Shown here: one piece after another, positions 27,319 through 35,494 of the stretch
Numbering within the stretch: the first letter of the stretch is position 1
How the letters are laid out: each line of letters begins with the position of its first letter
From: Rahnella victoriana
GTDB taxonomy: Bacteria; Pseudomonadota; Gammaproteobacteria; Enterobacterales; Enterobacteriaceae
Reading direction: 5' to 3'
NCBI RefSeq assembly: GCF_004330295.1
Contig: NZ_SJOJ01000002.1
Location: 248,001-312,000, forward strand
Length of the DNA: 64,000 nucleotides
Notes under the pieces: model-generated
The model's input: the letters and a program-made list of their open reading frames with translations, nothing else
What the model was told of the DNA's origin: nothing
The model's database searches: none
Made by a program: the position numbers and the translations under genes

Positions 27319-28296
27319 TTACGCCAACATGCGTGAACAAAAACGTTCTCTGTATTCTTTGGGTGTCAGTTGTAAATTTCTTTCAAACACACGGCGCAAA
27401 TTCAGCCCGCCACCAAAGCCGGTGGAAAGGGCGATCCGCCCGATGCTTTGCGTCGTCTGTTCCAGAAGTTGTCTTGCGGCGCTCAGTCGCGCTTCTTCCA
27501 CGTATTTGGCGGGAGTGATGCCGGTTTCACGGGTGAAGACCCGCGTGAAGTTTCGCGGACTCATCGCCACGCGTTCTGCCAGGCTTTCGACCGATAAGTC
27601 ACCGGTCAAATTCTGCATGAGCCATGTCTGAAGTTCGCGGATGGGGCCGTCACTGGCCTGATTCAAAAGATAGCGGCTGAATTGCGACTGTCCACCCGGA
27701 CGCCGCAGAAACATCACCAGATCCTGTGCGACATCTCTGGCCAGGCTGAAACCGTGGTCATCTTCAACCAGAGCCAGGGTGAGGTCGAACCCCGAACTGA
27801 CGCCGCCGGATGTCCAGACCGGTCCGTCCTGAACATATAACGGCCCGCGTTCGACCACGATCTGCGGGTATTCAGCCTGCAACGCGTCCAGCAATCGCCA
27901 GTGTGTGGTGGCATGGCGACCGTTCAGCAATCCCGTTTTCGCCAGCAATACGGCACCGCCACAAACAGACACCACGCGGCGGGCATAGGGTGCTGCCTGT
28001 TTCAGCCAGTCAACCACGCCGGAGCCTTCTTCATCCGTCAGGCCCTTGCCGGTGATCATAATGGTGTCACGGGGCAGCGTCGGGTCAAGGTCACAAAGCC
28101 GGTGGTCGGCCAGCAGATTCAGGCCGGAAACGCCGTGTACCACGCGGTGCGGTTGCGTCGTCGCCACCGTGACCTGATACGGCGAACCGGACGCATCGGG
28201 TGGCAACAGACGGTTGGCCTGCATGAGGATATCGGCAATGCCTGCCGCTTCGAATAACATGCCCCCGTCGGGGACGATAATCAGAAATGTGTTCAT
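27319..28296 (-). CDS. GlxA-type transcriptional regulator (DJ-1/PfpI domain plus AraC HTH)
   Basis: 325 residues from ATG 28296 (MNTFLIIVPDGGMLFEAAGIADIL). The N-terminal DJ-1/PfpI-like domain has VVSVCGGAVLLAKTGLL, with Cys at the nucleophile elbow, and TSGGVSSGFDLTLALV. The C-terminal AraC/XylS domain (residues about 220-320) has two HTH motifs: SVESLAERVAMSPRNFTRVFTRETG and IGRIALSTGFGGGLNLRRVFERN. It is in the same direction as the GAPDH gene, 78 bp upstream of it, so it may control that gene; this is only positional. A longer ATG start at 28416 adds 40 residues unlike the family. Confidence 0.87.
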   Translation of the reverse strand: MNTFLIIVPDGGMLFEAAGIADILMQANRLLPPDASGSPYQVTVATTQPHRVVHGVSGLNLLADHRLCDLDPTLPRDTIMITGKGLTDEEGSGVVDWLKQAAPYARRVVSVCGGAVLLAKTGLLNGRHATTHWRLLDALQAEYPQIVVERGPLYVQDGPVWTSGGVSSGFDLTLALVEDDHGFSLARDVAQDLVMFLRRPGGQSQFSRYLLNQASDGPIRELQTWLMQNLTGDLSVESLAERVAMSPRNFTRVFTRETGITPAKYVEEARLSAARQLLEQTTQSIGRIALSTGFGGGLNLRRVFERNLQLTPKEYRERFCSRMLA

Positions 28297-28515
28297 GGCA
28301 TTAAAAATACAATCTGTATTAAATAAGTCAAACCGCTTGATGCTTTTATCCGCATCGTCAGCCAGCGGATGAACATAAAAGCAGGGCGCCCGGACAGGAT
28401 TCCGCATTTTTGGCACAGGCTGACTGCCAAAAAGTACGCATTACTGCATGACCGGAAGTGACGATAACGGTATCTTATCAGCGCGGAGAATTACTCATAT
28501 CAACCCTGGAAGATT

Positions 28516-29121
28516 ATGATTTCAACATTAAAAAAACCATTACAATTCAGCATGTTGGTCATGCTGATGATTCTGGCTGGCTGTTCCAGCAAACCTCATT
28601 ATAAAAAATACGATACGCATGCCTTTGATGATGAAATCGAGGATGCCGCTGATGAATACAAAGTCGATCGTAAACTTGTTAAAGCGATTATTCAGGTCGA
28701 ATCCGGTTTCAATCCGGAAGCCGTCAGTCCTTCAAATGCCATCGGCCTGATGCAATTGAAAGCCTCGACCAGTGGTTGTGACGCATACCGTTATAAAGGC
28801 AAACGGGGTTGTCCTGATGATGACGATTTACTGGATCCGGAAACCAACATTGATTTGGGCACCGCCTATATCAGCGCATTACAACGGCAGCAGCTAAACT
28901 GGATCAATGATCCGCTGACACGGCGTTACGCCACCGAAGTTGCATATGCCAATGGCGCCGGTGCGTTACTGCGTACTTTTTCCAGTAACCGGCAAACGGC
29001 CATTCAGATGATCAACCAGCTGACGCCGGATGCCTTTAACTGGCATGTGCGTCAGTATCATCCTGCGGCGCAGGCACCCAGATACATGGCGAAAGTTGAG
29101 AAGGCGTACGCCGGTTTATAA
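28516..29121 (+). CDS. emtA: Membrane-bound lytic murein transglycosylase EmtA/MltE
   Basis: 201 residues (E. coli EmtA/MltE 203). A lipoprotein signal ends in LMILAGCSS (lipobox Cys23). The SLT domain has the catalytic Glu in IIQVESGFNPEAVSPSNAIGLMQLK, followed by ASTSG, and ATEVAYANGAGALLRTFSSNR and QAPRYMAKVEKAY near the end, all as in EmtA. It cleaves glycan strands endolytically to 1,6-anhydromuramyl products, anchored to the outer membrane. A Cys pair (SGCDAYRYKGKRGCPDD) and an acidic run are local variations. Confidence 0.9.
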   Translation: MISTLKKPLQFSMLVMLMILAGCSSKPHYKKYDTHAFDDEIEDAADEYKVDRKLVKAIIQVESGFNPEAVSPSNAIGLMQLKASTSGCDAYRYKGKRGCPDDDDLLDPETNIDLGTAYISALQRQQLNWINDPLTRRYATEVAYANGAGALLRTFSSNRQTAIQMINQLTPDAFNWHVRQYHPAAQAPRYMAKVEKAYAGL

Positions 29122-30485: not shown

Positions 30486-30580
30486 TGCCATCACTGAGGA
30501 TTATTGAACCGTTTACAATCTCCATTCGGCTCGTATAATGAGCCAAATAGACTTTCTATTCGGCTCACAGGTTTCCCGTT

Positions 30581-32032
30581 ATGGATAATCAACAATGGAT
30601 CTGGCAAAAATCTGACTGGCCACAGTTGAACTGGGATGACGATGTTATCCAGCCCATGTTGCGGCAGACTCGCCTGAAAATGGGCAAACTGGTGGGTAAA
30701 GTCGAATCCCGCTCCGGGCATGAAGCCACTGAGTATTCGCTCGAAGCCATGCTGAGCAACATTCTTTCTTCTTCTGAAATCGAAAATGAACGGCCCGATG
30801 CCCGTTCTGTTCGTTCGTCTTTGGCAAAACGGTTGGGACTTGCGGAACACCCGGCGGGCACAATGACGGAACGTTCGGAAGGTCTGGCAAAAATGATGAT
30901 GGATGTATTTGATCCCCATAATCCTTTGCTTTCAGAAACCCGTTTGTTCCAGTGGCATTGCTGGTTGTTCCCCGAGCCAGCCCCGTTGTATTTAAGGCGG
31001 GGGCAATGGCGTGGCGAGGAGACAATGCGCGTCGTTTCCGGGCGGATTGGGCATGAGAAAGTGCATTACCAGGCGCCTCCCCGTGAACAATTAACCGAAG
31101 AACTTCAGCATTTTATCGGATGGTATAACCAGTCATTCGACCGACCGGCTCTGGATCCGCTGCTTCGGGCTGCTATAGCCCATTTCTGGTTCATTACGCT
31201 TCACCCGTTTGAAGATGGTAACGGACGGATCACCCGGGCACTGACGGACATGGCGCTGTTTCAGGCCGATCATGACAGCGTCCGTTTATATGCCATGTCG
31301 GAGGCCATACTGCGTCACCGCAGCGGATATTATGATGTTCTTGAAGCCACCCAGCGCGGAGGCATGGATCTGACCCGCTGGCTCAGCTGGTTTTTGCAAA
31401 TGCTTGAAACCACGATGGATACAGCAATCCAGCGCATTGATCAGATCCTGGAGAAATCTCGGTTCTGGCAGATTTACCACGCGAGTCATTTCTCTGATGA
31501 ACAGAGAAAAGTCCTCAACCGCTTACTCGATGGCGGAGAGAAAGGTTTTTCAGAAGGCATAAATGCCAGCCAGTATCAGAAAGTCGCCAAAGTCAGTAAG
31601 GCCACGGCAACACGGCATCTGGCCGATCTCGTTTCTCTTGGTTGTCTGATAAAATCAGCCACCGGCGGGCGCAGCACCCGCTATACCATCAACCGGAACT
31701 TCTCGTGTATCAACGCAGGAAAACTCATGAAAAACATCACTTTTTACGGCCGTTTTGAAACGGACATCCTTGCCGGACGCAAAACGATCACACTGCGTGA
31801 AGCCAGCGACGCAGATTTTAACGCAGGCGATCAGGTACGTGTCAGCCGTTATGAAGACGGGGTGTTTTTCTGCAACATTGAGGTTATTGCAGTCACACCG
31901 GTTCATTTCGATGCGCTGAATGAGCAACATGCCGCGCAGGAAAACATGACTCTCGCGGAGCTGAAACAGGTGATCAGCGAGATTTATCCGGGGCTGAAAG
32001 AATTGTTTATGATTGAATTTCGCCTGCTTTGA
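30581..32032 (+). CDS. Fic protein fused to YqfB-type N4-acetylcytidine amidohydrolase
   Basis: 483 residues. Residues 1-382 are a Fic protein: N-terminal DUF4172-type helices with the inhibitory motif SSEIEN (64-69), the catalytic [12 protein letters not shown] (208-219), and a C-terminal winged helix ([18 protein letters not shown]). Residues 383-483 match the complete YqfB family, an ASCH-fold amidohydrolase, with the catalytic Lys401 and Thr404 (RKTITLRE) and Glu454 (QENMT) equivalent to K21, T24 and E74 of E. coli YqfB. No stop separates them. An internal AGGA plus ATG at 31727 could allow separate translation of the second part. Fic enzymes transfer AMP to proteins; YqfB deacetylates N4-acetylcytidine. 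Confidence 0.9.
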
Positions 32033-32833: not shown

Positions 32834-33796
32834 ATGGCAAAACACATCATCATTCTTGCGGTACCGGGCGTGCAGTTGCTCGATGTCTCGGGGCCGCTGG
32901 ACGTTTTCGCCGAAGCCAATCAGCAGCGCGGCCGTGAGGTGTATAAACTGAGCGTGATGGCCGTCAGCGAAGATCGGGTTGTGCCAACCTCGTCCGGTGC
33001 AAAACTTCTGGCGGATATCTCCCTGTCCTCCGCCCTTTCGTCGCCTGCCGATACCTTTCTGGTTGCCGGTGCACCGGTACTGGACCCCTTCATCACCGAT
33101 GAAATGCTGAAAGAAGATATTCGTCGGCTTAGTCTGCAATCCCGGCGTTTTGGCTCCGTGTGTACGGGCGCGCTGTTACTTGCCGCTGCGGGATTACTCG
33201 ACGATTGTCACGTCACCACGCACTGGTCGGTCGCCGGTCAGCTCAGGACGCAATACCCGCGGGTGAATGTTGAGGAAGATGCCATTTTTATTGCTGACGG
33301 CAGGCTACGCACCGCAGCGGGGGTGACGTCCGGGCTGGATTTAGCCCTGCATATGGTGGAAGAAGATCTCGGTCGGGAAACTGCGCTGGATGTCGCCGCA
33401 CAGCTGGTGATGTTCTTTAAACGTCCGGGCGGACAGTTACAGTTCAGCCGTCATGGTCAGGCATCGCTAAGCGGGCGTTCCGCCCTGCAGGATGTACAAC
33501 GCTGGGTGATGAACTCACTGGATCAGCCGCATAATGTGAAAAGTCTGTCCCGGCATATGGGCATCAGCGCCCGGCATCTGACACGGTTGTTCAATCAGGA
33601 ACTGAAGCAGTCCCCGGCGGAATGGCTGGAACAGCAGCGGGTATTTCATGCCAGAACGCTGCTGGAATCCGGGGAACTGGCCATCAAACAAATTGCGGCA
33701 CAGTGCGGGTTTTCAGGTGTTGATGTGCTGCGACGGGCATTTGTGCGGCAGCTTTCTGTGACACCGTCACAATATAAAAAGCATCACACCCGCTGA
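32834..33796 (+). CDS. GlxA-type transcriptional regulator divergent from the HD-domain gene
   Basis: 320 residues. N-terminal DJ-1/PfpI-like domain (IIILAVPGVQLLDVSGPLDVFAEA; SVCTGALLLAAAGLL with the elbow Cys; AAGVTSGLDLALHMVEED) and a C-terminal AraC domain from about residue 215 (NVKSLSRHMGISARHLTRLFNQEL; IKQIAAQCGFSGVDVLRRAFVRQLSVTPSQY). It is the second regulator of this kind in the terminus region, but the two share only family-level similarity. By position it should control the divergent HD-domain gene. Confidence 0.87.
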   Translation: MAKHIIILAVPGVQLLDVSGPLDVFAEANQQRGREVYKLSVMAVSEDRVVPTSSGAKLLADISLSSALSSPADTFLVAGAPVLDPFITDEMLKEDIRRLSLQSRRFGSVCTGALLLAAAGLLDDCHVTTHWSVAGQLRTQYPRVNVEEDAIFIADGRLRTAAGVTSGLDLALHMVEEDLGRETALDVAAQLVMFFKRPGGQLQFSRHGQASLSGRSALQDVQRWVMNSLDQPHNVKSLSRHMGISARHLTRLFNQELKQSPAEWLEQQRVFHARTLLESGELAIKQIAAQCGFSGVDVLRRAFVRQLSVTPSQYKKHHTR

Positions 33797-33814: not shown

Positions 33815-34378
33815 CTATAAAACGGCCACCTGTGCCCGACGAAAACACGCCGGATGATGGGTATTAATCAGGCCGGTAGCCTCCATCCAGGCATAGACAA
33901 TGGTCGGGCCGACAAATTTAAATCCCCTCTTTTTGAGATCTTTCGAAATGCGTTCTGACAATGCATCTTTCGTGGGCACCGGCCCGCTATGCTGAATCGC
34001 TTTTCCGCCGATTTGCGCCCAGATCCATTCACCGAAATCTTCCCCTGCCTGCTGCATAGCAAGGTACGCGCGGGCGTTGTTAATCACCGCCGTGATTTTG
34101 CTTCGCGAACGGATAATATCGGCGTTATTTACCAGCCTTTCGATGTCCTCTTCCGTGAAGCCGGCGATTTTTGCAGGTTCGAACTGGCAAAAAGCCAGCC
34201 GCAATGCGTCTCGTTTTTTCAGCACAATGCGCCAGGATAACCCGGCCTGAAAACCATCCAGCATCAGTTTTTCCCACAATGCGCGGCTGTCACGAACCGG
34301 CTTGCCCCATTCATTGTCATGATAGGCGATCATCATGGGGTCAGTTGTGCCCCAGGGGCAGCGGATAAGGTCGGTCAT
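33815..34378 (-). CDS. tag: DNA-3-methyladenine glycosylase I
   Basis: 187 residues (E. coli Tag 187). Typical segments: CPWGTTDPMMIAYHDNEWGKP, GFQAGLSWRIVLKKRDALR, RSKITAVINNARAYLAMQ and KKRGFKFVGPTIVYAWMEATGLINTHHPACF. The zinc ligands of the Tag family (Cys near the N-terminus, His in AYHDNEWG, His and Cys in NTHHPAC) are kept. It removes 3-methyladenine from alkylated DNA as the first step of base excision repair. It is divergent from tus. Confidence 0.95.
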   Translation of the reverse strand: MTDLIRCPWGTTDPMMIAYHDNEWGKPVRDSRALWEKLMLDGFQAGLSWRIVLKKRDALRLAFCQFEPAKIAGFTEEDIERLVNNADIIRSRSKITAVINNARAYLAMQQAGEDFGEWIWAQIGGKAIQHSGPVPTKDALSERISKDLKKRGFKFVGPTIVYAWMEATGLINTHHPACFRRAQVAVL

Positions 34379-34558: not shown

Positions 34559-35494
34559 ATGGCGGATTATGATTTGATTGCCCGGATGAACGGCTGTTTT
34601 AATGAGCTTGAACTGGCACTGCACGATCTGGGGAATTTCCTGAATCAGCTGGAATTATTGCAGGCACGGGTCTTTGCCCTGCCCGAAATAGTGAAAGGTG
34701 AAGAGCATAATCCTGCGGATAAAATCAGCGTGACACCGCACACCGGTGAAGCCGCACAAACACTGGCGTTACAACATTTTCAGCGCCTGTTCATTCATCA
34801 TAATAATGAAAATGTCAGCAGTAAATCGGCAGTACGCTTGCCCGGCGTGCTGTGTTATGCCGTTGATCCTGCGGAACATCAGTCCGCCCTGCTGCTGATA
34901 GAAGAAGTGAATAAACTCAAAGCCGAGCTGGAACATATTGTCACCGTTGAATCGGGTCTTGCCCGTGAACAACGCTTTGAGTTTGTGCATACCCACCTTC
35001 GCGGTCTGATCACCCTGAATGCTTACCGTTCGGTGACCTGGCTGAATGATCCGGACTCCGTGCGCTTTGGCTGGGCAAATAAGCACATTATAAAAAATGT
35101 GACCCGCGATGAAGTGCTGGCACAACTGGAAAAAAGCCTGAATGCCGGACGGGCGGTCTCGCCTTATACCCGGGAGCAATGGATGGAGAATATTAACCGC
35201 GAAATGAATGATGTGAAGCGACTGCCGGAACATGCGGCGCTGAAATTTAAACGACCGGTGAAAGTGCAACCCATTGCCCGCGTGTGGTATCGCAACAGTC
35301 AGAAACAGGTGCAACATCCCTGCCCGCTGCCCCTGATTGCGTTATGTCTGCGTTCGCCAATGATGCAGGTACCGAAGCTGGGAGTATTGCCGGATTATGA
35401 TGTCACGATGATCAAACACAAATATAAACCGCAGTCGCAGCCGCTGAGTCTGCTGATTAAACGCCTGCACCTTTATACCGATCATCCTTTATAA
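34559..35494 (+). CDS. tus: DNA replication terminus site-binding protein Tus
   Basis: 311 residues (E. coli Tus 309). Diagnostic segments: KSAVRLPGVLCYAVD, LITLNAYRSVTWLNDPDSVRFGWANKHIIKN, DEVLAQLEKSLNAGR, FKRPVKVQPIARVWYRNSQKQVQHPCPLPLIAL and HKYKPQSQPLSLLIKRLHLY. These include the DNA-contact beta strands and the cytosine-trapping pocket residues (IKRPVKVQPIARVW-type). Tus binds Ter as a monomer and stops DnaB on one side. The start is ATG with GGAGG close by. Its neighbour fumC on the opposite strand keeps the E. coli order. Confidence 0.97.
   Translation: MADYDLIARMNGCFNELELALHDLGNFLNQLELLQARVFALPEIVKGEEHNPADKISVTPHTGEAAQTLALQHFQRLFIHHNNENVSSKSAVRLPGVLCYAVDPAEHQSALLLIEEVNKLKAELEHIVTVESGLAREQRFEFVHTHLRGLITLNAYRSVTWLNDPDSVRFGWANKHIIKNVTRDEVLAQLEKSLNAGRAVSPYTREQWMENINREMNDVKRLPEHAALKFKRPVKVQPIARVWYRNSQKQVQHPCPLPLIALCLRSPMMQVPKLGVLPDYDVTMIKHKYKPQSQPLSLLIKRLHLYTDHPL

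Follow-up and report, generated by a model that had tools for sequence, protein, structure and literature searches.

Fic proteins with a DNA-binding domain and the small enzyme YqfB are each known from described systems. CbFic2 of Coxiella burnetii (PDB 8CIL) consists of a DUF4172 domain, a Fic domain, and a winged helix, carries a class II inhibitory motif, and ends after the winged helix at a length of 378-380 residues. DNA is bound by its helix-turn-helix (HTH) domain, and CbFic2 is regulated by that DNA, as stated in the available text of PMC10628234. CccR of Yersinia pseudotuberculosis belongs to the Fic-HTH proteins; acting through inverted repeats near the −35 and −10 boxes, it represses the promoter of its own gene, according to the available text of PMC9755527. 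A third system, SoFic, ends at a stop codon. YqfB of Escherichia coli (PDB 1TE7 and 9KYF) is a free protein of 103 residues, in which K21, T24, R26, H70, E74, and Y89 are the residues tested by mutation (available text of PMC6972931).

The window, i.e. the whole stretch of 64,000 nucleotides of Rahnella DNA that was analyzed, contains a gene in which a Fic protein and a YqfB protein are joined in a single open frame. Like CbFic2, this fusion displays the order DUF4172-Fic-winged helix together with a class II inhibitory motif. Unlike CbFic2, and unlike CccR with the domain plan given in the available text of PMC9755527, it includes YqfB; SoFic terminates where the Rahnella frame continues into YqfB. 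The YqfB part is similar to the E. coli enzyme over positions 5-103 of 103, including the six tested residues, but forms the C-terminal portion of a chain of 483 residues instead of a free protein of about 103 residues. The reported target of CbFic2, a host histone, is uninformative with regard to the target in Rahnella.

The fused gene is located at 30581..32032 on the plus strand and comprises 483 codons and a stop codon, with no internal stop. Its parts, all on the same strand, are (i) the DUF4172 domain at residues 6-87 (30596..30841; Pfam, 1.6e-25); (ii) the Fic domain at residues 117-226 (30929..31258; Pfam, 8.4e-16); (iii) a winged helix at about residues 306-370 (31496..31690), which includes the recognition helix and was identified by sequence and fold matches; (iv) a linker at residues 371-382 (31691..31726); and (v) the YqfB domain at residues 383-483, extending from a retained ATG to the stop codon (31727..32032), with an ASCH domain assigned to residues 386-482 (Pfam, 8.3e-18). 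Pfam, the PDB sequence match, and the fold match to 8cil were consistent in the order and fold of the first three domains. The inhibitory motif SSEIEN was found at residues 64-69, with S64, E68, and N69 being invariant in all four fusions detected (see below). The Fic motif HPFx(D/E)GN(G/K)R is present at residues 208-219 and is identical in the four fusions. Based on these motifs, the Fic part is predicted to be a class II, i.e. self-inhibited, AMPylator.

Structural comparisons gave the same picture of two complete proteins on one chain. A PDB sequence search matched residues 5-370 with CbFic2 (8cil, 5-369 of 380; E = 1.3e-84), winged helix included, and residues 385-483 with E. coli YqfB. 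An AlphaFold model derived from a 29-sequence alignment (mean pLDDT 85.8, pTM 0.70) showed two folded parts, with pLDDT values below 50 at residues 375-382. When this model was submitted to Foldseek, 8cil ranked first (TMt 0.78 and 0.88) and YqfB 9kyf was obtained at rank 4 (TMt 0.87). An initial sequence-only reading of this DNA had proposed a complete self-inhibited Fic protein and a complete YqfB within one frame. The Pfam and NCBIfam domains, the intact motifs, and the missing stop codon bear out this proposal. The winged helix (about residues 306-370) and the promoter/operator region (30512-30567) described below are additional to the features of that reading.

The YqfB part scored well above the cut-off of the NCBIfam model for N(4)-acetylcytidine aminohydrolase (NF003443; residues 383-482, 150.7 bits vs. 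93). All six residues tested in YqfB are kept in the fusion and correspond, in the order given above, to K401, T404, R406, H450, E454, and Y469; these include the Lys, Thr, and Glu at 401, 404, and 454 that had been predicted to be catalytic. The YqfB part would thus be expected to recycle N4-acetylcytidine. Since YqfB-type enzymes have been placed in pyrimidine salvage, with nucleic-acid binding not detected according to the available text of PMC9599836, the substrate is taken to be the free nucleoside. The earlier description of the fusion as joining protein AMPylation with RNA-nucleoside deacetylation therefore stands as anatomy, but its emphasis has to be shifted from RNA to the free nucleoside.

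Exactly one YqfB above the family cut-off was detected in each of the 14 Rahnella species genomes, and the four genomes with a fusion are therefore devoid of a free-standing yqfB gene. For the window's own genome, the check for a separate yqfB that had been suggested at the outset returned none. Its only other ASCH match, a protein of 130 aa (L142, G000:C4:172927-173238), was considered as another YqfB and rejected, as it reached only 23 bits vs. the cut-off of 93. This weak match recurred in 11 of the 14 Rahnella genomes when they were scored with the YqfB model, and the protein is of a different kind.

Full-length fusions were present in 4 of the 14 Rahnella species genomes, i.e. the window's own, G002, G005 (Rahnella ecdela), and G012, the latter three showing 84, 78, and 77% identity to the window's fusion, respectively. 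The remaining ten species have kept YqfB and have no full-length Fic. Relatives with a stop codon at the junction and two separate genes had been named as the finding that would speak against a genuine fusion. None of the four full-length fusions contains such a stop, and in none of the 14 genomes does the locus contain an intact fic with yqfB behind it as a gene of its own. Errors in sequencing or assembly are refuted, as is a read-through of recent origin in a single strain, since four species whose genomes were assembled separately have the same frame; we assign practically no probability to either. The fusion is thereby confirmed as real, being neither a chance event nor a sequencing error.

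Outside Rahnella, no fusion was found among the matches listed for 392 genomes of a family sample, or among those listed at E ≤ 1e-55 for 394 genomes of an order sample and 369 genomes of a class sample; these samples overlap and include some Rahnella. The matches listed for the family sample were the strongest ones, so that any fusion would rank near the top. The fusion was also absent from six genomes of a related genus. One match that extended to residue 425 (G251) was rejected, because its Fic ends at its own stop codon and no YqfB follows. Four genomes from three other genera gave weak matches to residues of about 302-482 that ran across stops; these were likewise discarded, as there was no tblastn match to Fic (E 1e-3).

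Stand-alone relatives of the Fic part were 33-58% identical to it and stop 4-9 residues past the Tyr of GR(S/N)TRY (9 parsed of 13 loci). They also occur on plasmids of Pantoea, Acinetobacter, Vibrio, and others; seven plasmid records covered at least 80% of the query, and 80% of residues 300-483 was covered in none of 259 records. A further stand-alone relative (L095; 53% identity), which has the same operator, lies close to one end of a 33-kb contig from a viral collection (IMGVR_UViG_2617271287_000003), a hint that fic may travel with prophages. No published account of Fic with ASCH, or of Fic in Rahnella, was found in the open-access PMC literature, in line with the initial statement that a Fic-YqfB protein was not known to have been described.

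Upstream of the fused gene, a promoter (TTTACA-16-TATAAT) was identified at 30512..30539 on the plus strand, which agrees with the consensus at 11 of 12 positions and precedes fic in all four fusions. In the window, inverted half-sites surround its −10 box. Half-site 1 (30523..30533, minus strand) has two mismatches to TGAGCCGAATA, half-site 2 (30539..30549, plus strand) has one mismatch and lies 16 bp from half-site 1, and half-site 3 (30557..30567, minus strand) matches TGAGCCGAATA exactly and lies 18 bp from half-site 2. The same array was found upstream of stand-alone fic genes, with 11-bp half-sites of the sequence TGAGCCGAATA or, in others, TGAGGCGAATA or TGAGTAGAATA. The half-sites alternate in orientation with steps of 16 and 18 bp, i.e. 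with a period of 34 bp. Most arrays are positioned within about 100 bp of the fic start (roughly 20-140 bp over the loci).

The occurrence of the array was evaluated at loci L019-L047, L090-L093, L095, and L102-L141, with L094 of the discovery set left unparsed. A pair of half-sites was required to have the exact step and at most two mismatches per half-site, with sequence variants defined on the discovery set. Within this set, whose loci, like all operator loci compared, are related by descent and some of them closely, a correctly spaced pair was present at 32 of 34 stand-alone loci and at all four fusions; it was absent from the stand-alone loci L022 and L028. None of 2040 shuffled controls yielded a spaced pair. 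Among 3309 random segments taken from these loci, 52 did, a number perhaps inflated by segments overlapping real operators if the operator region was imperfectly excluded at minus-strand loci. At held-out loci of the order, the pair was found in 17 of 17 parsed cases (20 loci in total, three of them unparsed), and it occurred in none of 1100 windows inside parsed genes. Loci at the class level carry different half-sites (TGCGGAGAATA and others), and the three fixed variants gave a pair at one of five parsed loci, with 15 of the 20 class loci unparsed. Scored without a fixed sequence, the geometry was present at 17 of 20 loci from the order, with 72 hits in 2000 control windows, and at 19 of 20 loci from the class, with 141 hits in 2000.

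The half-site sequence varies from clade to clade and appears to follow the recognition helix largely, if imperfectly. An exact TGAGCCGAATA accompanied 18 of 18 VSKATA proteins vs. none of 17 VSR proteins in the discovery set (L028 was set aside for this comparison, as were L036 and L093, for which the helix could not be parsed). Among the held-out VSKATA loci, five of seven had an exact TGAGCCGAATA, with one mismatch at L104 and two mismatches at L112. An exact TGAGCCGAATA site was also found at L115, which encodes a VSSATA protein. In the window's own genome, the exact 11-mer TGAGCCGAATA occurs at one place, which is half-site 3, and GGCTC-N7-GAGCC occurs at three places; operator control is therefore probably local. 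Allowing up to one mismatch, 73 matches to the 11-mer were counted in this genome, and 39 to a reversed control pattern.

As the array is common to stand-alone fic genes, and CccR provides a precedent for self-repression, it is most simply interpreted as the operator of Fic itself, which predicts DNA binding and self-repression by the protein. The operator of CccR is unlike the one described here, since it has another sequence and is made up of 10-bp repeats 26 bp apart, as given in the available text of PMC9755527. We also considered that the promoter was originally that of yqfB and had been captured by fic, since it likewise precedes yqfB in a related genus that has no Fic there. This was rejected, because the same palindrome stands before stand-alone fic genes; promoter and operator thus more likely arrived together with fic. 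Among the matches listed in a search of the open-access literature, no description of the half-site array was found.

The locus could be compared across Rahnella by means of its neighbors. Thirteen other Rahnella loci were compared, some of them truncated where the contig or the fetched sequence ended. The downstream genes at 33815-34378 and 34559-35494, the latter presumably tus judged by its place, were present at all 13, and the upstream gene at 28516-29121 was present at 9. Among the ten species without full-length Fic, six different lesions of fic were distinguished, all of which spared yqfB. These lesions comprise (i) G001, in which fic is reduced to its last codons before yqfB; (ii) G008, in which the phosphoesterase gene upstream has been joined to codon 231 of fic by a deletion; (iii) G003 (L072), in which a helix-turn-helix fragment (Pfam HTH_32 and others), probably part of a transposase, replaces fic codons 1-297 and the remaining open frame encodes winged helix-YqfB; (iv) G013 (R. 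woolbedingensis), in which about the first 21 fic codons and the linker remain; (v) G009, in which the operator, the promoter, and a few codons remain; and (vi) G004, in which the promoter remains. For G006, G007, G010, and G011, no fic remnant was detected by blastn (E 0.01).

In a tree of six locus genes, intact fusions were placed in both deep clades of Rahnella and the losses were scattered. The simplest history is a single fusion early in the genus, followed by repeated loss of Fic. That the fusion was ancestral to the whole genus we infer with caution, given the four genomes without a remnant and a support of 69-82% for the deep nodes of a tree whose neighboring genes may share recombination.

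Traces of the operator were also observed beyond Rahnella. Among the loci compared, those of two genera, g25 (the related genus with six genomes mentioned above) and g60, are nearest by YqfB identity. No match to the Fic part was obtained in the six g25 genomes at E 1e-20. Before yqfB, however, G1127 (L099) contains four half-sites at −128 to −77 with steps of 18, 16, and 17, and G037 (L098) contains a half-site pair with the exact step. Single or degraded half-sites were found in G386 (L096) and G330 (L100), and only promoter-like hexamers in G181 and G264. Half-sites were absent before yqfB in the single g60 genome examined (G072). The g25 operators are probably regulatory scars of a lost fic, and the fic module probably adjoined yqfB already in the ancestor common to Rahnella and g25. 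These scars attest the operator and not a fused frame, and they may alternatively result from an independent arrival.

All four domains of the fusion showed purifying selection (DUF4172, Fic, winged helix, and YqfB; dN 0.03-0.20, dS 0.48 to saturation). For the 12-residue linker, dN was 0.27-1.08, and 10 of 33 aligned bases were invariant, so that its sequence appears unconstrained. Its length differs between clades by one whole codon, and the frame is open in all four fusions. Under neutral substitution, the linker would stay open in four lineages with P = 0.25-0.43, which makes its openness unsurprising; an in-frame stop within the 12 codons before yqfB was found at 12 of 26 Fic-free loci.

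The initial reading had noticed an ATG at the junction (31727) with AGGA in front of it. Both were confirmed: the ATG of yqfB lies at 31727-31729, and a Shine-Dalgarno-like AGGAAAA is located within the linker codons (31717..31723, plus strand). The ATG is retained in all four fusions, for which a rough neutral simulation with hand-set branch lengths gave a probability of 0.001-0.024. A GGA is present at −9 to −7 of the internal ATG in three of the four fusions; G002 has AGAAAA instead, with AAGG farther upstream. The predicted Shine-Dalgarno pairing of the fusions was ordinary (−3.3 to −5.4). In R. woolbedingensis (G013) and G001, linker-like sequence serves as the leader of the surviving yqfB. 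Because the ATG is kept in all four fusions amid a variable linker, and because of the linker-like leaders in these two genomes, free YqfB is likely made from the internal start beside the fusion. Alternatively, this Met may be kept because selection acts on it as the first residue of the YqfB fold. Part of the linker probably derives from the former yqfB leader.

As a whole, these observations are best explained by the arrival of fic, its fusion with yqfB, the formation of two products, and self-repression, a joint claim that we hold to be reasonably probable. A stand-alone class II Fic gene with winged helix, promoter, and operator would have arrived directly upstream of yqfB. With no stop codon in Rahnella, each complete Fic chain would run on into YqfB. 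The main product would then be the fusion, with a mass of about 55 kDa, in which a flexible linker connects two enzymes that fold separately; the retained internal start would probably also yield free YqfB of about 12 kDa. By analogy with known relatives, the winged helix would be dimeric. It probably recognizes the half-sites that surround the −10 box and so shuts the promoter down, which would put the supply of YqfB under the self-control of Fic. The YqfB part would recycle N4-acetylcytidine, and the Fic part would AMPylate some target, plausibly in phage defense or stress as SoFic-type proteins do. A match to the PADLOC SoFic model (residues 15-373 to model positions 17-353 of 361, 7e-44), the relatives on plasmids, and the frequent loss of Fic fit a defense-like or stress-related accessory gene. 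Going one step further, a self-repressing AMPylator might control nucleoside salvage, with one frame giving rise to the fusion and to free YqfB, the promoter being shut by the winged helix, and loss of Fic freeing YqfB; we put this forward as a tentative idea.

The joining of the two genes could instead be a tolerated accident, after which both enzymes work as before and free YqfB is what the cell needs. An unconstrained linker that would stay open by chance with a probability of 0.25-0.43 is consistent with such an accident, as are the retained ATG and the persistence of YqfB in the 10 of 14 species without full-length Fic. However, without a stop codon a complete Fic always carries YqfB unless the chain is cleaved, and the sole difference in linker length is a whole codon, which leaves all four fusions in frame. 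We consider this possible, if somewhat doubtful. At the other extreme, the fusion might be a coupled bifunctional enzyme, in which YqfB, with N4-acetylcytidine or cytidine as ligand, serves as a sensor of RNA turnover that influences the AMPylation or the DNA binding of the Fic part, or in which Fic modifies and controls YqfB. Purifying selection acts on all domains, and YqfB is placed directly behind the winged helix, through which DNA regulates CbFic2 (available text of PMC10628234); moreover, the C-terminal domain of SoFic matters for toxicity, as stated in the available text of PMC12249575. Coupling is nevertheless unlikely in our view, as Fic was repeatedly lost and no such coupling was found in the available text of the literature. 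In particular, the flexible and freely changing linker favors two independent enzymes on one chain over a tight coupling.

Possibly, the fusion acts as a SoFic-like anti-phage abortive-infection protein, with YqfB taking the place of a downstream antidote. Besides the PADLOC match, this would agree with the patchy presence of the fusion, with the relatives on plasmids and on one IMG/VR contig, and with the small downstream antitoxin AS1 of the SoFic from E. coli H397 (available text of PMC12249575). Yet the fusion reached 67 bits, far under the NCBIfam SoFic equivalog cut-off of 550. In addition, AS1 has 47 residues according to the same text, whereas YqfB is a 101-residue enzyme that all 14 genomes possess, whether or not Fic is present. 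We regard such a role as improbable.

The Fic-YqfB domain combination and the regulatory site common to stand-alone relatives appear to be new; self-repression as such is already known for CccR. An architecture kept across the genus joins a protein-modifying enzyme to a nucleoside-salvage enzyme, and the readable scars of arrival, fusion, and repeated loss offer a way to study how an accessory Fic gene comes to be linked with a housekeeping gene. The operator array predicts self-repression by DUF4172-Fic-winged-helix proteins in general, for which CccR is the only precedent in the available text of the literature. If true, self-repression across this family would help to explain the purpose of the DNA-binding domain in these Fic proteins.

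Two further observations concern the window and its genome. A second, distant Fic is encoded elsewhere in the same genome (L002, G000:C57:136522-137172), which is 27% identical over residues 160-376 and lies in an open frame of 440 residues. Finally, the locus is flanked by the genes at 27319-28407 and 32834-33796, which look like paralogues (tblastn, 35-38%); the latter encodes a DJ-1/PfpI domain together with an AraC-type HTH (Pfam).
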